64,000 nt of DNA. Origin: Dehalococcoidia bacterium (GTDB taxonomy: Bacteria; Chloroflexota; Dehalococcoidia; UBA2979). The notes under the pieces were generated by a model. It did no database searches. It was not told where the DNA came from and saw only the letters and a program-made list of their open reading frames with translations. The stretch covers positions 39,725 through 103,724 of the forward strand of contig JAQWMB010000012.1 in NCBI GenBank assembly GCA_029246995.1. The letters are read 5' to 3'. How positions within the stretch are numbered: the first letter of the stretch is position 1; each line of letters starts with the position of its first letter. Position numbers and translations under genes: made by a program. Positions 17,868 to 26,243 of this stretch are shown here, piece after piece.

Positions 17868-19259
17868 ATGAGACAGTTAGATCTGAAAAAAAATTTAAAT
17901 AATGTTGGTGATTGCATTATCTATATAATGAGTCGTGATCAACGTATTAATGATAATCATGCTTTACTTTATGCACAAAAGCTTAGTCTTGAGAAAGCAC
18001 TGCCTATTGTTATTTTATTTAATTTTACACCGAATGTTGGGGTGAGGGCACGTGAACATTATTCCTTTATGATAAATGGACTTAAAGAAATTGAAAAAAA
18101 ATGTGAGCGTAAAAAGATTTCTTTTGTACTTACAATTGGTGAACCCATTACGCAAATATCTTCAATGCTTAATAGATTAAATCCTCAAGAGGTAATTTTT
18201 GATTTTAGTCCATTAAAGAATATACAAAAAACACAAAAGAAAATCGTCAACACCAATGAATGCTCATTTACGATTATTGATACTCATAATATTATTCCAA
18301 CATGGTTATTGTCTGACAAAGAAGAGTATGCTGCGCATACAATTAGAAGAAAAGTTCATAAACAACTAGCAAATTGGTTAATAGAACCAGAAAAGATTAT
18401 GACTAATCCTTATCAATTAAAATGTAAAATACCAAAAAATAATTGGAGGAAAGTAGATATTTTAATCAATTCGATTAAATCAAATGGATCTAAAATCGAA
18501 TATGTTGCTGGTGAACAAGCTGCTCAATTAGGATTAAAAAATTTTATATTATATCGACTTGATGCTTATGCCACCCAGCGAAACTTACCTACAAATAATG
18601 GTCAGAGCAATTTAAGTCCTTATTTACATTTTGGTCATCTTTCATCGCTTCGAATTACATTAAATATATTAAATTCAAGTCAAGAAAGCCCTTTGCTTTT
18701 TAAAGAAGGCAAATTACCTTCAATTGATGGTGAGCCTTCTAGGCAAGATAGCATCAATATATTTCTTGAAGAATTAATTGTACGGAAAGAGTTGGCAGAT
18801 AATTTTTGTTATTTCAATAATAGTTATGATTCATTAATAGGTGCTAAAAATTGGGCCCAAGAATCTTTAAGTAGACATAATAATGATGTGCGTGATTATA
18901 ACTACGAACTTAAAGATTGGATCAATGCAAGTACTCATGATTTAGCATGGAATGCATCACAACAAGAATTGATGCGTACTGGTAAAATGCATGGTTACAT
19001 GCGTATGTATTGGGCAAAAAAAATTCTCGAATGGTCTGAGACGCCAGAATTAGCTATTCAAACGGCTATTTTTTTGAATGATCATTATTCAATAGATGGC
19101 GGGGATCCAAATGGATATACAGGAATAATGTGGTCAATTGCTGGAGTACACGATCGACCGTGGTTTGAACGTAAAGTTTTTGGCAAAATTCGCTACATGA
19201 ATTTAAATGGCCTTAAGCGTCGCTTTGATGTAGAAAAATATATCAATCAATGGAAATAA
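17868..19259 (+). CDS. phr: Deoxyribodipyrimidine photo-lyase / cryptochrome
   Basis: N-terminal RDQRINDNHAL; C-terminal HGYMRMYWAKKILEWSETP, LNDHYSIDGGDPNGYTGIMWSIAGVHDRPWFERKVFGKIRYM. Confidence 0.93.
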   Translation: MRQLDLKKNLNNVGDCIIYIMSRDQRINDNHALLYAQKLSLEKALPIVILFNFTPNVGVRAREHYSFMINGLKEIEKKCERKKISFVLTIGEPITQISSMLNRLNPQEVIFDFSPLKNIQKTQKKIVNTNECSFTIIDTHNIIPTWLLSDKEEYAAHTIRRKVHKQLANWLIEPEKIMTNPYQLKCKIPKNNWRKVDILINSIKSNGSKIEYVAGEQAAQLGLKNFILYRLDAYATQRNLPTNNGQSNLSPYLHFGHLSSLRITLNILNSSQESPLLFKEGKLPSIDGEPSRQDSINIFLEELIVRKELADNFCYFNNSYDSLIGAKNWAQESLSRHNNDVRDYNYELKDWINASTHDLAWNASQQELMRTGKMHGYMRMYWAKKILEWSETPELAIQTAIFLNDHYSIDGGDPNGYTGIMWSIAGVHDRPWFERKVFGKIRYMNLNGLKRRFDVEKYINQWK

Positions 19260-19270
19260 GACTAGAATAA

Positions 19271-19345
19271 TGGTGAGCCCGGGGAGAATCGAACTCCCGA
19301 CCGAATGCTTAAAAGGCATCTGCTCTACCGCTGAGCTACGGGCCC
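19271..19345 (-). tRNA. tRNA-Lys(TTT)
   Basis: Reverse complement GGGCCCGTAGCTCAGCGGTAGAGCAGATGCCTTTTAAGCATTCGGTCGGGAGTTCGATTCTCCCCGGGCTCACCA folds as a complete cloverleaf; loop CTTTTAA; CCA encoded. Confidence 0.97.
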
Positions 19346-19454
19346 AGATCTATGTTCCTGAAAAACAACAATACTGTCAACCGATAAATTTCTAATCTGT
19401 TAGCATTGTGAACTAGGGGAGTGTTTTTTCATTATTACTCTAGGAATTAATTGT
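19309..19454. repeat. 146-bp direct repeat, left copy (att-like)
   Basis: TTAAAAGGCATCTGCTCTACCGCTGAGCTACGGGCCCAGATCTATGTTCCTG... repeated at 22285. Confidence 0.9.
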
Positions 19455-19478
19455 GTATACAGATAAATATTATGTAAT

Positions 19479-19500
19479 ACCCACCAATAAACCCACCAAA
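19479..19500. repeat. ACCCACCAATAAACCCACCAAA, copy 1
   Basis: 22-bp exact direct repeat with 22157-22178. Confidence 0.9.
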
Positions 19501-19547
19501 CTATAGAATAACGTGTTTTTCAACTTATACTGAGTTCTATGTAAAAC

Positions 19548-19565
19548 CGTACGAATTAATACGAA
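19548..19565 (-). repeat. Iteron site A (TTCGTATTAATTCGTACG on minus strand)
   Basis: Exact reverse complement of sites B and D. Confidence 0.88.
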
Positions 19566-19636
19566 CTAACTAAAGCAAAACACCATCACAGCCGATGCGA
19601 GTAAAAATCATTGCTGTAACAACTGCAATTAATAAT

Positions 19637-19867
19637 CTATGTTTTGCTTTCATTTTTTATAACTTTTTCATACAAGGTTTTAATTCCGAATATAAACCAA
19701 ACTACTACAAAACCCCACCATAAAGCAAAAAACCAATCGTTTTTTGCAGTTCCATTCCACTCTAACCATTCAAATACTATGCCTTCCATAAATAAATCAA
19801 AAGAAAGTAAAGCAAAGAATCCAAACACCCAAATTAAAAAAAATGAAAATGTTTTAATTCTCTTCAT
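19637..19867 (-). CDS. Small two-TM membrane protein
   Basis: 76 aa; ATG immediately follows the stop of the upstream ORF; antisense ORF 19644..19871 less plausible. Confidence 0.65.
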   Translation of the reverse strand: MKRIKTFSFFLIWVFGFFALLSFDLFMEGIVFEWLEWNGTAKNDWFFALWWGFVVVWFIFGIKTLYEKVIKNESKT

Positions 19868-20290
19868 TTAAGTAGCTTCTTTGAAATAGTTGTCAACTTC
19901 AAGAGATCTTCTATCGAATTCAACCTCTGCAGCTCCTGCAACCTCTTCAAGTGGAGAACAAGCCATTTCTGTGCAACCAAGCATACCATTTGAGCAGAAA
20001 CAATTATTACAGTAGTTATTGCCAGCTCCTTTTCCTCGCCAATCATCTTCAACGATCTCACCATTAGTCAGCGTGCAGCTTTTGCCTAGAGACTCTTGCT
20101 GATAAAGAAAAAAACTAACTCCGACCACGGCTGCAATAACAACAATGCCAATTAATGTTGGTACTAATTTGCTTCTTTTTTTTGTTTGTTGTTCAGTAGC
20201 TGGGGTAAGTTGTGAGTCTTGCTTAGAGCCACACTTTGAACAAAATGTGCTTTTGCTATCAATAGGCGAGGAGCATTTTTTGCAATTCAT
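19868..20290 (-). CDS. Zinc-ribbon / single-TM protein with C-terminal pacifastin-like Cys-rich domain
   Basis: MNCKKCSSPIDSKSTFCSKCGSKQ zinc ribbon; TM LVPTLIGIVVIAAVVGVSFFLY; CTLTNG..YCNNCFCSNGMLGCTEMAC. Confidence 0.75.
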   Translation of the reverse strand: MNCKKCSSPIDSKSTFCSKCGSKQDSQLTPATEQQTKKRSKLVPTLIGIVVIAAVVGVSFFLYQQESLGKSCTLTNGEIVEDDWRGKGAGNNYCNNCFCSNGMLGCTEMACSPLEEVAGAAEVEFDRRSLEVDNYFKEAT

Positions 20291-20348
20291 AAATTATAGC
20301 CCTGAATTAATAATGTATTGTATACAATGTGATTATAGCATTAATTAA

Positions 20349-20380
20349 TTCGTATTAATTCGTACGTATTAATTCGTACG
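20349..20380 (+). repeat. Iteron site B (TTCGTATTAATTCGTACGTATTAATTCGTACG)
   Basis: Three TTAATTCGTA-type units. Confidence 0.9.
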
Positions 20381-21616
20381 ATGTAAGTCAAAAAAGTCTA
20401 CGTAGTTAGTAAATGGCCCTGGTTGTGGCTGCCAACCAGGAGGTGGGTCATCTTCCGGATCACCTGAACGTAAGAATGCATTAAAATTATCATAAAACGT
20501 TTGAGTGTCCATGCCTGTGTGTTTTTCAATTGCACCCCAGAACCCTAATTCAAGATTGTAAAAATCTCTTGGAATATCAATCCAAACTGTTTGCCAAGAT
20601 GTCAACGATGCCAAATAAGGAGTAGCCATCATAAACGCTGGGCATTTATCGGCATCAGGAGCACGTTCAGTTTCATATCGTTCTGTCCATGGACCCATAG
20701 TGAAATCGGGGGTACAATCCCTGCCCCTACCCTCTGCAGGGCCTCCCATTATAGCTTGTCGTATTTCTTTGTAAAACCAGGGGTGAGTTACATTGGCAAT
20801 AGAAATATTACCAAGACCATCTTCCCAGGTTTGTCCATCAAAAAAAGAGATATCTTGCCAGTGTTGTCGTAACCAGGCATTTTGAAATGCAATAGCAGCA
20901 CCTTCTACCCACCATGGTGGTGCATATATCGTTGTTTGTGGGTTATCTTGATCCCTTTGATAATCTAACCCTCTGTCCAATGAATGTGCTCGTTGATAAT
21001 GATGAAAGTACTCATGGGCATAATGTAGTGCTAGTCTTGTTAGATTCTTCCATGGCTCATTTTGTAATTCCTCTTGGCTTGAATCACCATATTGATGCCC
21101 ATACCAAGTCAGGTTTTTTAGGTCTTCCAAACAGATGCTAATTGGGTTTGTTGAAGCAGTACGACGTTGACCAGTATTGCTCCCTGTCAAGCAATTACGT
21201 TGATCGTGTACATCTGCTACTGTTTTCAATCTACCATCTTTAAAATCCAAATCTTTCAATTTTTGAAATATCGGTTCATTGTCTTCATTTGAAAGGTCTT
21301 TGTTATAGACAACGTAAAAATAATTTGGATAGCTTCCAACTACTTGATTAATGTTTGTATGAACCTCATTAAAAAATTGACGGTGTTCTTCAGGAAATCC
21401 TTTATGCGTAACCAGCTGTTGTTTAAATTCTTTACTTGGCACATTAAAATCAATACTGATTAATTTATCTAGTGCAGGTCCTCCCCATTGATAAGAGTCA
21501 CTGTCTTGTTTCTTATCGGAAGATTGCTTTTGATCAGAAGAAGATTGATTATTTATTGAATCACCACCACAGCCTATAATTACTATACAAAGAATTATAG
21601 AAATAACTTTTTTCAT
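20369..21616 (-). CDS. Lipoprotein with zincin metallopeptidase-like motif
   Basis: Lipobox VIIGCGG; HEYFHHYQ (HExxH) and PWWVEGAAIAFQ (downstream Glu). Confidence 0.75.
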   Translation of the reverse strand: MKKVISIILCIVIIGCGGDSINNQSSSDQKQSSDKKQDSDSYQWGGPALDKLISIDFNVPSKEFKQQLVTHKGFPEEHRQFFNEVHTNINQVVGSYPNYFYVVYNKDLSNEDNEPIFQKLKDLDFKDGRLKTVADVHDQRNCLTGSNTGQRRTASTNPISICLEDLKNLTWYGHQYGDSSQEELQNEPWKNLTRLALHYAHEYFHHYQRAHSLDRGLDYQRDQDNPQTTIYAPPWWVEGAAIAFQNAWLRQHWQDISFFDGQTWEDGLGNISIANVTHPWFYKEIRQAIMGGPAEGRGRDCTPDFTMGPWTERYETERAPDADKCPAFMMATPYLASLTSWQTVWIDIPRDFYNLELGFWGAIEKHTGMDTQTFYDNFNAFLRSGDPEDDPPPGWQPQPGPFTNYVDFFDLHRTN

Positions 21617-21710
21617 TGATGATTCCTAACAATTACAATTACAATTACATTATAACTATAAACACAACAACATATATCAACATAAGCAAGATATAGATAA
21701 AAACAATTAA

Positions 21711-21727
21711 TTCGTATTAATTCGTAC
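21711..21727 (+). repeat. Iteron site C (TTCGTATTAATTCGTAC)
   Basis: 17/18 match to sites B and D. Confidence 0.88.
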
Positions 21728-21822
21728 AGATGTAAGTCAAAAAGTCTACGAAGAATATTTAGCCAAGCACCGCAATAAGTGACCACAGCCTTAATTTAAT
21801 AAAATATTATTGGGCAAATTCA

Positions 21823-22053
21823 TTATATTTCAAATGAAAATTTAACTGCACCAGTAAAACTTATAGCAAATAGCACAAGAAGTAATACTAAAATAATTGT
21901 GCCAGTCTTGTTGTATGTGCGTCGTAATTTAATTGAAGCGTAAATCATCAAAGAGAGCAAACTAAAAAAGATTAATTGGTTTATTAGCATAAAAAAACGC
22001 ACCTGAAATAAGTGCGATGATCTATTATAGCATGTTTTTAAAAGCATATTCAA
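21823..22053 (-). CDS. Small membrane protein, hypothetical
   Basis: 76 aa, two hydrophobic segments; start likely internal (MLINQLIFF). Confidence 0.5.
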   Translation of the reverse strand: MNMLLKTCYNRSSHLFQVRFFMLINQLIFFSLLSLMIYASIKLRRTYNKTGTIILVLLLVLFAISFTGAVKFSFEI

Positions 22054-22070
22054 TATACAGCACTACTTAA

Positions 22071-22088
22071 TTCGTATTAATTCGTACG
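22071..22088 (+). repeat. Iteron site D (TTCGTATTAATTCGTACG)
   Basis: Exact match to site B core. Confidence 0.9.
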
Positions 22089-22113
22089 TTTCTGCATAAA
22101 AGCTGAAATAACC

Positions 22114-22133
22114 CTCCCAGCGTCTCCCAGCGT
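22114..22133. repeat. Tandem 10-bp repeat CTCCCAGCGT x2
   Basis: Exact tandem duplication. Confidence 0.85.
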
Positions 22134-22156
22134 TAGGTATTTTATCCTCATGAAAA

Positions 22157-22178
22157 ACCCACCAATAAACCCACCAAA
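22157..22178. repeat. ACCCACCAATAAACCCACCAAA, copy 2
   Basis: 22-bp exact direct repeat with 19479-19500. Confidence 0.9.
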
Positions 22179-22284
22179 GATCAATATCAGTACATATTAA
22201 GGCATTACATAGAATATTAATAATATATCAATTAACAGATATAGAGAGTGTTATAAATTGTCTGGTATATTAGGTGGATTTGTA

Positions 22285-22321
22285 TTAAAAGGCATCTGCT
22301 CTACCGCTGAGCTACGGGCCC
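22285..22321 (-). pseudogene. tRNA-Lys 5'-half fragment
   Basis: Identical to the tRNA-Lys 5' half through the anticodon loop; no 3' half follows. Confidence 0.9.
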
Positions 22322-22430
22322 AGATCTATGTTCCTGAAAAACACCAATACTGTCAACCGATATATTCCTAATCTGTTAGCATTGTGCACTAGATAAGAGT
22401 TTTTTCATTATTATCATAGGAATTAATTGT
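22285..22430. repeat. 146-bp direct repeat, right copy (att-like)
   Basis: Same length as the left copy, no gaps, ~92% identity by eye. Confidence 0.9.
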
Positions 22431-22466: not shown

Positions 22467-23855
22467 GTGTTTATGAAAAAAAATTTCTATATCAGATCAA
22501 AAATTTCTATCATGCTTGTAGTCTTGTCTGCCTCACTTGCAGCTTGTTCAAATGGAAAATCTGATCAAAATACTGCTCTAACTAATCAATTGAATTCTTC
22601 GCAAGCTGAAAGTACTCAGCAACATAAAGAAAGTAAAGAAGTATTACAAAAAGAACAATCTCTTCCAAATATAACTTATTTTGCAAAAAATAAAAGTGAT
22701 AGATTTTTTATTGACTTTGAAGATATTATTGCAGGACATCCTTATGTTGGAACAAGAAGTCCTAGGCCTCATAATGATGCTCAAGTATATTTTTCAAACA
22801 CAGATCAAAGGTGGATTGATGCGAAAAAACCTTCTGATTACCCTCCTATCTATGCTGTAGCTGATGGTTATGTGGCTCTACCTCAATCATCATTCTATAA
22901 TGTGGTTGACCACTCAAATGCAGATCCTCCTTGGTGGCATGTAGCGTACAATTTTACTTTAAGAATAGCCAAAGACGGCAATAGTTATATAGAATTCTTG
23001 TATCAAATGGAGCCTTATATGATACCTGATATTACGGATAAACCAAAAGATTTCTATAAACAATTCATCTTAGTTACAGATGGTCAATATGTAAAGAAAG
23101 GAGATGTATTAGCGTATATGTATGTCCCGTCTTTTAGCGAAATGACTGGAAGTAAAGGAGCATCTTCCCATATTGCTTTCTCTTTAATTAAACAACCAAG
23201 AACGGTGTATGCACCTGCTATTTTTTCTGAAGAAGTAGTTGCAAAATTTGGTGAAATTTATAGACATCCTAAAGAAGGATGGGAGAGTAAAAGTTTCGGG
23301 TTTGATTGGAATAGAGGAAGAGGCCTTCCAAATGGGATGGGTTGGATGATTAGTGATGAAGAAAACCCATTTGGTGATAATCCTCTAGATGTATTATTAT
23401 TTGATGGAATTAAAGATGCAGAATTAGATCCTAAAGCAATGGCATATCCGAAAGACTTAGGATTTAAATCTTCAAATTTGTTATATAGCCAGTATGGATG
23501 GGGAGGCACAATTATAGAAAATATTAAAATTGAAGAAGATTGGCAGTTGCTATTTGCTGGTATTGGTGGCCCAATGAAGGTTGTTTTCAAATTAGAAGAA
23601 AATGGTCAATACAGAGAAAGTAAAGTGCTTGAATTACGATCAGGACAAAATTTTAATCTGACTCATAAAAATAATTTTTTAGGAAATGCATCAAAATTTT
23701 CTATATTAATTACAGATCCAAATAATTGGGGATGGAGCTTGGCTTTTGCAAATAAAGAAGCTACATTCATTGCTCCTGGAAGCACAAAAGATATATCTCC
23801 TCAATGTCCACCCGGATGCCCACCTAGTCCAAATCCTTATAAACTTAATAGGTGA
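22467..23855 (+). CDS. Lipoprotein with M23-like (degenerate) fold
   Basis: Lipobox LAACSNG; YAVADGYVALP..VTDGQYVKKGDVLAYMYVP..SSHIAFSL resembles M23 layout but lacks the clear HxxxD/HxH set. Confidence 0.6.
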   Translation: MFMKKNFYIRSKISIMLVVLSASLAACSNGKSDQNTALTNQLNSSQAESTQQHKESKEVLQKEQSLPNITYFAKNKSDRFFIDFEDIIAGHPYVGTRSPRPHNDAQVYFSNTDQRWIDAKKPSDYPPIYAVADGYVALPQSSFYNVVDHSNADPPWWHVAYNFTLRIAKDGNSYIEFLYQMEPYMIPDITDKPKDFYKQFILVTDGQYVKKGDVLAYMYVPSFSEMTGSKGASSHIAFSLIKQPRTVYAPAIFSEEVVAKFGEIYRHPKEGWESKSFGFDWNRGRGLPNGMGWMISDEENPFGDNPLDVLLFDGIKDAELDPKAMAYPKDLGFKSSNLLYSQYGWGGTIIENIKIEEDWQLLFAGIGGPMKVVFKLEENGQYRESKVLELRSGQNFNLTHKNNFLGNASKFSILITDPNNWGWSLAFANKEATFIAPGSTKDISPQCPPGCPPSPNPYKLNR

Positions 23856-23912
23856 TGGCCACAATAATTTAGTACAGCACAAAAAAATATATTTAGAGAG
23901 AGAAAAAAGAAA

Positions 23913-24059
23913 ATGGCAAACGTAAGAAATGAAAATGGAAGTTGTAAATGCGGCAGATCTCCAACTGGTGATTGTATTGGCTGGCATAGTTTAACGCCTG
24001 CGGAATATGATGCGAAAACTGAAGCGGAAAAAGAAGCAACATTTGGTGACTCTAAATAA
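23913..24059 (+). CDS. 48-aa protein with CxCGRSPTGxCxGWH motif (absent from ORF track)
   Basis: MANVRNENGSCKCGRSPTGDCIGWHSLTPAEYDAKTEAEKEATFGDSK, read directly from sequence. Confidence 0.75.
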   Translation: MANVRNENGSCKCGRSPTGDCIGWHSLTPAEYDAKTEAEKEATFGDSK

Positions 24060-24061
24060 TA

Positions 24062-24223
24062 ATGCTCAATCAGTTTGTTGAAGATTTTACAGCATCACTA
24101 TTAACAGCAGATAAAACCTCTGAGCCTGCGTTGGTAAAACATACAGTCCTGGAATAAGACAGTACTATAAAACAGAAGCAGTCAGGCTGTTTATTGAGAA
24201 AGAAGTTGTAATTGTGGTATAAG
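24062..24223 (+). pseudogene. Frameshifted ORF remnant
   Basis: MLNQFVEDFTASLLTADKTSEPALV continues in another frame as KTYSPGIRQYYKTEAVRLFIEKEVVIVV*; shift falls at an AAAA run. Confidence 0.45.
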
Positions 24224-24226
24224 ACT

Positions 24227-24267
24227 AAGGGGGGGCCTACTTATGTCTGAGTGGCTCTCCCCTTTTT
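24227..24267 (+). terminator. Intrinsic terminator
   Basis: AAGGGGGGGCC ... GGCTCTCCCCTTTTT. Confidence 0.6.
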
Positions 24268-24290
24268 GTATGCGTTGTAAAAATACGTAT

Positions 24291-24306
24291 ATTAATACGA
24301 ATTAAT
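24291..24306 (-). repeat. Iteron site E, partial (ATTAATTCGTATTAAT on minus strand)
   Basis: Partial match to sites A-D, outside the att-like repeats. Confidence 0.6.
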
Positions 24307-24347
24307 TAGTTATATTATGCGAGGTAAGCTTAGTAACTTGAGTATTA

Positions 24348-25142
24348 TTAATAATTACAGAGCTTAGGTTTCTTAGATCCCTTATACAAACGATCTGCCC
24401 AGTTTTGTGACTTGCTCACTAAGTCCGAACTTTTTACTGTTGTCATGAATTCAGCAGGACAGAGCCATTCTTCACTCCCACGATTATTTTTTTTCAATGA
24501 CATGTGGACATGGGCCCATTCATCTTGACCATATAGATAACCTATTAACTGACCTTGACGCACAGTATCTCCAGCTTTTATTGTCATCGATTGTAGCATT
24601 TTATTGGCAAGAGTTTTTTGTTCAGCAATTTTTGTCGCGTTGGCAGGCCCAGCAGATGGCTCAAGGCTGTATACAATGATTTGGCCATTAGGAATTTGCC
24701 ACGCCAGATTAATTTGAAATGCGCCATCGGGAGGTCTTTCAAATATTTGAACGAACATGACTTGGCCATCTGAAATTGCTTGAAGCGCAACTTCTTTTTG
24801 ATTTGTAAAGTAATCAAGACCATTATGAAATTGAATGCCCAGCTGATTCTCTTGAACGGCAAAAGGCTGAACTCCCCAGTAATCGACAGGGTCCATAAAA
24901 GGAGAAACCAAGAGACTTAAAGGCTCAGATGACGAAGTTAGAGTTTGTTTAGTAAGTCTTTGCTTTGTGGGGGTGGTTGTTTGATTCTGAACAGGAATGC
25001 TTGTTGTCTGTGCAGTTTTAGTTACATTATTCACTCTGGGAGATGTCGGTTCCTCTGATGCACAACCAAGCACGACTATGCTGAAAAAGGATACTGCCAC
25101 AATTATTTTTTTGAAACCCACTTGAAGCTCCATTTCGCCCAT
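24348..25142 (-). CDS. M23 family metallopeptidase-like lipoprotein
   Basis: Lipobox VLGCAS; FHNGLDYF (HxxxD) and AHVHMSL (HxH); GDTVRQGQLIGYLY. Confidence 0.78.
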   Translation of the reverse strand: MGEMELQVGFKKIIVAVSFFSIVVLGCASEEPTSPRVNNVTKTAQTTSIPVQNQTTTPTKQRLTKQTLTSSSEPLSLLVSPFMDPVDYWGVQPFAVQENQLGIQFHNGLDYFTNQKEVALQAISDGQVMFVQIFERPPDGAFQINLAWQIPNGQIIVYSLEPSAGPANATKIAEQKTLANKMLQSMTIKAGDTVRQGQLIGYLYGQDEWAHVHMSLKKNNRGSEEWLCPAEFMTTVKSSDLVSKSQNWADRLYKGSKKPKLCNY

Positions 25143-25146
25143 CGAT

Positions 25147-25365
25147 TATGAACTAGCATCTAGGCAAGATAGCATATTTTTCAAAAAATATTCAACAGAT
25201 TCCATTAGTAAATTAGATATTGGCTTAACTTTAATCATTACTGATAAAGATTTAACTACAAAAGAAGTGGGTATTTTATGATTCTCAGTCAAAAGGTTTT
25301 TTTAGAAAGACTTTACTTGGGAAACCAATAATAAAGACACAGTTAATTTAAGTCAAGCATTGAAT
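25147..25365 (+). pseudogene. Possible frameshifted gene remnant
   Basis: DYELASRQDSIFFKKYSTDSISKLDIGLTLIITDKDLTTKEVGIL then in another frame YDSQSKGFFRKTLLGKPIIKTQLI*. Confidence 0.3.
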
Positions 25366-25427
25366 TCAAATATTCTAATATCCTTTATGGCTTCTTTATA
25401 AAAGCACATTCAATGCTTGTGTGGTAT

Positions 25428-25473
25428 AAAAATAAATGGGGGACCAAACGTAGCTGGTCCCCCATTTATTTTT
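25428..25473 (-). terminator. Strong intrinsic terminator (near-symmetric)
   Basis: AAAAATAAATGGGGGACCA-AACGTAGC-TGGTCCCCCATTTATTTTT, perfect 19-bp stem. Confidence 0.92.
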
Positions 25474-25487
25474 ATATTGAATAATGG

Positions 25488-25676
25488 CTAGGTTGTCCAA
25501 TTGGAACAATCTACATTGATTTCCATTGTTGTTTCACTAGTAATTTTTACTGATTTATAATCTGTGCTATGTTTTTTATTGTATTCTCTATGTTTATTAT
25601 CACAATACGGCAATGTTTTACTTAAACCACATGAGCAAATACTATATTTTTCATTTTTTTGTAGGTTTATTTTCAT
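25488..25676 (-). CDS. CDGSH-type iron-sulfur domain protein
   Basis: CSCGLSKTLPYCDNKH. Confidence 0.8.
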   Translation of the reverse strand: MKINLQKNEKYSICSCGLSKTLPYCDNKHREYNKKHSTDYKSVKITSETTMEINVDCSNWTT

Positions 25677-25679
25677 TTA

Positions 25680-26243
25680 TTAGGTCACTTTTAAAGGAAT
25701 ATTATCATTGCAAAGCGGACATTCATTTGCTTCATAGTTTTGCAATGTAATTTTTACTAATGATTTTGATGGTAGATTAAAGTCAATTGGCTGCATTGAT
25801 CTATCAGCAATAATTGCTACGCCCACTACAGTTCCATTTGCATTTTTTACTGCATCAATTGTTTCAAAAATTGACTGTCCACTTGTAAGGATATCATCCA
25901 CAACAAGTACTTTTTCATTAGGTTGAATTAAGTAGTCTCTACCTATAGCTCGACCATTTTCTACTTTTTCAGCAATAATGCTTCGAACGCGATAGTTGCG
26001 TGCTACTTCATATGCAATGATAGCACCACCAGTTGTTGGCCCAACAATTAAATCAGGCTGTAAATCCTTAGTCAGCTCATAGATATCTTTACAAATTAAC
26101 TCTGTAAGATCTGGCCATTGCAATAAATTAAATTTCTCTAAATATGTATCGGAATGGACACCTGAATTGAGTTTAAAATGCCCACTTTGAATGACTTTAG
26201 CATCAATTAGCAATGATCTAATTTCTTCTTGATTCTTTACCAT
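25680..26243 (-). CDS. pyrE: Orotate phosphoribosyltransferase
   Basis: SGHFKLNSGVHSDTYLEKF, VLVVDDILTSGQS. Confidence 0.92.
   Translation of the reverse strand: MVKNQEEIRSLLIDAKVIQSGHFKLNSGVHSDTYLEKFNLLQWPDLTELICKDIYELTKDLQPDLIVGPTTGGAIIAYEVARNYRVRSIIAEKVENGRAIGRDYLIQPNEKVLVVDDILTSGQSIFETIDAVKNANGTVVGVAIIADRSMQPIDFNLPSKSLVKITLQNYEANECPLCNDNIPLKVT

Follow-up and report, generated by a model that had tools for sequence, protein, structure and literature searches.

Within the 64,000-nucleotide window analyzed here (the whole stretch given above, part of contig C17 at 39725-103724 in a Dehalococcoidia genome), a tRNA-Lys gene adjoins a 2,976-bp segment that is very probably a genomic island, inserted by a tyrosine integrase of the lambda/L5 type at the anticodon loop of that gene. 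It is best read as a minimal island bounded by the attachment site of the element (attP), lacking an integrase, of the rare type that restores the 5' half of its target tRNA, and resembling the cis-mobilizable elements (CIMEs). The genome comprises 1.185 Mb in 31 contigs and was judged 88.9% complete.

The tRNA-Lys(UUU) gene (anticodon TTT) lies at 19271-19345 on the minus strand and was recognized by ARAGORN and by Rfam (RF00005, 71 bits). A repeat search found a gapless direct repeat of 146 bp, with copy 1 at 19309-19454 and copy 2 at 22285-22430 in the same orientation, 92% identical and 2,976 bp apart from start to start. Each copy consists of the first 37 nucleotides of tRNA-Lys plus 109 bp of upstream DNA. 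None of the 11 mismatches falls in the 37 nucleotides of the tRNA half, with 3 in the next 60 bp and 8 in the final 49 bp, and the longest exact run common to the copies is 59 bp. Beyond the 146 bp the similarity collapses (35 of 46 positions mismatched), and across the junction on the other side the copies match at chance level only (8 of 50 identical). The first-pass annotation of this DNA had described the tRNA gene, the gapless repeat, the perfect tRNA half, and the 11 mismatches, and all were confirmed; its wording of the location needs amending, given that the tRNA is on the minus strand and its upstream DNA thus lies to its right, although the repeat itself stands. A DNA search of the whole genome placed the tRNA-Lys 5' half in just these two positions, the two further matches being tRNA-Met and tRNA-Phe, and found no third tRNA-Lys fragment.

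The position of the repeat boundary is the first line of evidence for site-specific recombination. The identity covers tRNA nucleotides 1 to 37, and its end coincides exactly with the final nucleotide of the anticodon loop, the 7-nt CTTTTAA (19309-19315, minus strand), which we propose as the 7-bp overlap or crossover region at the attL end. The anticodon loop is a recognized sublocation for crossover in tRNA genes, and in such cases it corresponds to the 7-bp overlap region (PMC4383910; PMC8371274). A repeat boundary at the loop edge is as expected for an anticodon-loop site of a tyrosine integrase. Site-specific integration at this loop, as proposed in the first-pass annotation, is supported by this boundary, by paired arm-type sites found at both ends of the island only, and by a single-copy site in a genus-mate.

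The arm-type sites lie just inside the island ends. One copy of the 22-bp word ACCCACCAATAAACCCACCAAA, made up of two CCCACCA units with a 12-bp period, was found within each end, at 19479-19500 and 22157-22178, both on the plus strand. We built a candidate attP by joining the right end of the island to its left end (22284 joined to 19309); its predicted junction reads GGATTTGTATTAAAAGGCATCTGCTC and then the copy-1 upstream sequence, and the CCCACCA units, all directly oriented, fall at -127/-115 and +171/+183 relative to the crossover. There are two copies of ACCCACCAATAAACCCACCAAA in the window against zero expected by shuffling and exactly two in the genome, and no exact copy was found in 43 relatives. 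For comparison, about 1,950 pairs of 300-bp stretches, drawn at random from the window, shared no word longer than 14 bp. The two arm-site pairs are identical at 22 of 22 positions, whereas the 109-bp upstream copies have diverged. Direct-orientation pairs of arm-type repeats flank the core in the attP of phages L5 and Giles, and 11-bp repeat pairs flanking the tmRNA core of phage CrimD were read as arm-type integrase sites (PMC3203893). The CCCACCA pairs are, by the same analogy, putative paired arm-type integrase sites, and the anticodon-loop core with such repeats on both sides has the layout of a tyrosine-integrase attachment site. CCCACCA-like matches in two class-level genomes were set aside; they carried 2 mismatches and occurred singly or 385 kb apart.

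Two other repeat families occupy the same region. A tandem CCCAGCGTCTCCCAGCG, which can also be written as tandem CCCAGCGTCT, lies at 22116-22132 (plus strand; -169) on the left attP arm and is a possible accessory or excisionase site. Repeats of the (TTAATTCGTA)2 type are confined to the island within the whole genome and sit between cargo modules: on the left arm at 22066-22087 (plus strand; -218), at 21706-21727 (plus strand), as an overlapping double copy that covers the lipoprotein gene stop codon and continues past it at 20344-20379 (plus strand), and, inverted relative to the others, on the right arm at 19549-19570 (minus strand; +241). They may be accessory sites, iterons, or module borders, and an accessory role for the tandem CCCAGCGTCT and the (TTAATTCGTA)2 repeat on each arm is speculative.

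We propose the following course for the insertion. Crossover would occur within the 7-bp anticodon loop, with the anticodon arm of tRNA-Lys serving as the chromosomal site (attB). The attP of the element would have brought a tRNA 5' half together with 109 bp of promoter-containing upstream DNA, and integration would then have joined the element promoter and 5' half (19309-19345) to the native 3' half (19271-19308), restoring an intact gene. The native 5' half and its promoter would have been displaced to the far end of the island, where copy 2 (22285-22430) marks the attR side. The suggestion that the element resupplies both the 5' half and the promoter is supported; in keeping with it, both copies retain TTGACA at a distance of 30-35 bp from the 5' end of the tRNA, on its upstream side (19380-19375 and 22356-22351). 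Because a 5'-restoring element replaces the promoter-bearing part of the gene, it must bring a working promoter, and this need would explain why the identity block spans 146 bp rather than a few dozen. The integrase would bind the anticodon-loop core and both flanking CCCACCA pairs, and for excision or new integration it would be supplied in trans; we infer that the island may be mobile at the present day. The displaced native promoter (22351-22356) points into the island, and all four cargo genes face the same way. Read-through from it into the cargo is uncertain, given the promoter-like site, hairpin, and T7 run at 22053-21998.

Open reading frame (ORF) and family searches recognized no recombinase encoded inside the island, in agreement with the first-pass annotation. 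Elsewhere in the genome, where that annotation had suggested looking for a tyrosine recombinase linked to the same attachment sequence, only two tyrosine recombinases were found (PF00589), in the contexts uvrC-xer-eno-gapA and aroQ-xer-topA, with no tRNA nearby. Both proteins look like housekeeping XerC/XerD. Elements that use Xer recombinases target dif and are not known to target tRNA genes. The resident Xer proteins were rejected as the mobilizing enzyme because of this target preference and because of their housekeeping contexts without a tRNA nearby. A serine recombinase, as in the ssrA islands of Dehalococcoides (PMC3146451), was rejected as well, given that PF00239 was absent from both this genome and the genus-mate. 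Integrases adjacent to tRNA genes do occur in family relatives (G043:C24, G020:C48, G023:C25, and G009:C11), none of them with a comparable tRNA 5'-half repeat. About 11% of the genome is missing from the assembly, and a helper integrase could thus lie in the unseen part.

The cargo amounts to about 2.5 kb and four ORFs, all on the minus strand, in which family and profile searches recognized no mobility function, integrase, or phage fragment. Recognizable phage-satellite proteins were likewise absent from the cargo, which gave only weak PHROG matches of unknown function. ORF 1 (19637-19867) encodes a hydrophobic, likely small membrane protein of 76 residues with no family match. ORF 2 (19868-20290; 140 residues) combines an N-terminal zinc-ribbon-like part (PF13240, E value 3e-4, below its cut-off), a hydrophobic segment, and a cysteine-rich pacifastin-like stretch (PF05375, E value 5e-7, above its cut-off). 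ORF 3 (20369-21616) encodes a putative lipoprotein of 415 residues in which WWVEGAA follows HEYFHHYQ by about 30 residues; the H, E, and H and the later E of this motif are unchanged between the protein and two aligned homologs, which come from another family of the class, and the motif layout marks the protein as a putative gluzincin-like metallopeptidase. The other 43 genomes of the family gave no homolog and the class gave few, and searches of phages and plasmids gave no match and of the PDB nothing convincing. A single-sequence AlphaFold model had a mean predicted local distance difference test score of 32, too low for use. A stray duplicated tail of this gene follows the (TTAATTCGTA)2 repeat at 21706-21727, running to about 21752, and hints at internal rearrangement or deletion. 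ORF 4 (21823-22053) encodes a small membrane protein of at most 76 residues, the likelier start being the ATG just below 21998. At 21998-22053 on the minus strand, a promoter-like site (TTGAAT-18-TATAAT) runs directly into a hairpin (22016-21998) and a T7 run. Composition marks the island weakly: it has 35% GC where the window has 33%, and of 123 windows compared, 8 have a larger trinucleotide distance, two of these overlapping the island itself.

The setting of the island as described earlier, between a photolyase gene and pyrE, is correct. The photolyase-family gene lies at 17868-19259, and M23-type genes, a CDGSH gene, and pyrE (25680-26243) follow to the right. In the genus-mate (G001, the only one compared), photolyase, tRNA-Lys, and pyrE stand in the same order with a single tRNA-Lys gene and no second half, and YdjM-family and DUF805 genes precede pyrE in place of the island and the M23 genes. 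The comparison of this interval between related genomes that the first-pass annotation had called for bore its reading out in part: the single tRNA gene and the different gene content were found, and a nucleotide-exact empty site was not. No extra tRNA half was present within about 1.5 kb of the tRNA gene at 28 further family loci. The genus-mate can be aligned to either repeat copy over the tRNA half plus about 62 bp of upstream DNA. Over these 99 sites, it differs from copy 1 at 9 and from copy 2 at 8, whereas 3 differences separate the copies, which share 7 differences from the genus-mate. The copies are closer to each other than to the genus-mate, and thus have a common ancestry that postdates the split from it. 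It is the geometry alone that indicates which copy is native.

Several of these results count against an inserted island. The sequence comparison shows that the attP segment arose within the lineage of the host, so its presence alone is no proof that the element came from elsewhere. Past copy 2, the right flank fails to align to the genus-mate, which leaves the empty site short of nucleotide-exact, and neither an empty-site sequence nor that of an excised circle was seen. The 89% of the genome that is assembled yielded no helper integrase with these arm sites, and the function of the arm sites is argued from their layout.

The surroundings offered some further observations. All of the DNA between tRNA-Lys and pyrE varies within the genus, with M23-like lipoproteins and CDGSH here (22467-25676) and YdjM and DUF805 in the mate (L117:9800-11676). 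The promoter-like site at 21998-22053, of extended -10 type and leading into a CGCAC...GTGCG hairpin and T7, belongs to about 75 bp common to the island and the genus-mate (G001:C1:22276-22320), whose copy lies between its own tRNA-Lys and pyrE genes; the present genome has a single instance of the hairpin pattern and the mate has two. This sharing may hint that the interval of the genus-mate also held a related element. The photolyase-family protein has its best matches in Patescibacteria/Saccharimonadia at 53-58% identity, near relatives possibly being outside that search, and lateral transfer of the gene is possible. Downstream of the CDGSH gene, a perfect 22-bp inverted repeat with an 8-bp loop (25425-25476) is probably a terminator. 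A ribosomal protein S16-like ORF at L120:5610-6032 ends in (EAAPEAEAAP)-type repeats at a contig end.

Two accounts of how an integrase-inserted island came to lack its integrase divide between them the confidence that we place in the insertion itself and add nothing to it. The first, which we hold to be a serious possibility, is that a larger, integrase-bearing phage, integrative and conjugative element (ICE), or integrative and mobilizable element (IME) entered this site in the same manner and that internal deletion then removed its integrase and transfer genes, leaving a remnant that would now be immobile or, like CIMEs, would depend on accretion with another element to move. The duplicated lipoprotein-gene tail beside the TTAATTCGTA repeat (21706-21752), the divergence of the repeat copies at 11 of 146 positions, and the frequency of integrase-less CIMEs of 1.2-13 kb in streptococci (PMC7563491) are all consistent with decay. 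The arm pairs, however, have stayed identical while the upstream copies diverged, which suggests a kept site function or recent integration, and no relic of an integrase or phage gene was recognized inside. The second account, to which we give about the same weight, is an attP-only satellite that uses the integrase of a phage or other element resident in the same cell and matching it in arm and core specificity. The complete two-armed attP, the intact tRNA restoration, and the compact cargo with its four ORFs on one strand argue for it; the lack of a helper in this genome and the single instance of the element argue against it. Mobilization of a satellite in trans is plausible, and the decay of a larger element is no less so. 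We are doubtful about the fuller version, in which a 3-kb cargo with a complete two-armed attP and a captured tRNA-Lys promoter, having no movement proteins of its own, is a minimal satellite moved by passing integrases in a streamlined lineage.

It is improbable that the tRNA 5' region was simply duplicated as a segment, without site-specific recombination, and that unrelated genes were later inserted between its two copies. Such a history would account for the coalescence of both copies within the lineage. A random duplication, however, has no reason to end at the anticodon-loop edge, and the unique arm-type repeats at attP-like distances inside both ends and the absence of any duplication in the genus-mate or at the family loci also disfavor it, as they do the tandem tRNA duplication named in the first-pass annotation as the alternative. 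An assembly artefact, in which a metagenome contig joins strains with and without the island at the tRNA, is very improbable, for although the assembly is fragmented and repeats are typical misjoin points, the copies share no exact run longer than 59 bp, the arm sites lie inside both ends, and the GC content of the island fits that of the window.

An integrase-inserted island of this kind matters for how such elements are sought. A two-armed attP with tRNA restoration and without an integrase offers a clear and testable mark of non-autonomous integrative elements. Helper elements could be located and recognized through the CCCACCA arm sites, in the form of the word ACCCACCANNAAACCCACCAAA. Among known systems, tycheposons (PMC10872708; PMC11389934) are likewise tRNA-bounded cargo elements of streamlined aquatic bacteria. 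Tycheposons are described as encoding their own tyrosine recombinase and as spanning 4-200 kb (PMC10872708), whereas the island has no such gene and measures 2,976 bp. The pTN3-like archaeal elements (PMC8371274) have a tRNA 5' half as attB and transcribe the restored tRNA from an element promoter, as would be the case here; they differ in being archaeal and in carrying an integrase whose promoter drives the tRNA, where the island has a copy of the promoter region of the tRNA itself. The attP sites of mycobacteriophages L5, Giles, and CrimD (PMC3203893) share the short-repeat pairs on both sides of a tRNA or tmRNA core, but their repeats adjoin the integrase gene and differ in sequence and length (11 bp in CrimD, against a 12-bp period here). 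Of the 3919 islands in Islander (PMC4383910), 159 have 5' fragments and 3760 have 3' fragments, and 2083 sites are anticodon-centered; the 5'-restoring geometry is thus rarer than the 3' type but documented. With the 5'-fragment islands (PMC4383910), the present island shares an intact tRNA at one end, a displaced 5' fragment in the same orientation upstream, which is the side that the Islander rule prescribes, and an anticodon-loop crossover. Islander islands must carry an integrase gene and peak in size at 13.6 and 39.9 kb; this island is far smaller, lacks the gene, and would fail that filter, and integrase-requiring island finders of this sort miss such elements. The island works like a CIME (PMC7563491), although it has no neighboring tandem ICE or IME sharing its attachment site, the arrangement through which CIMEs have been detected, in keeping with the lack of a third tRNA-Lys fragment, and although its tRNA site is of the 5'-restoring kind, not a target at the 3' end. 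Single CIMEs are also expected, and like them the island keeps its flanking attachment sites, has neither an integrase nor recombination or transfer genes, carries cargo only, and at 3 kb falls within their range of 1.2-13 kb.

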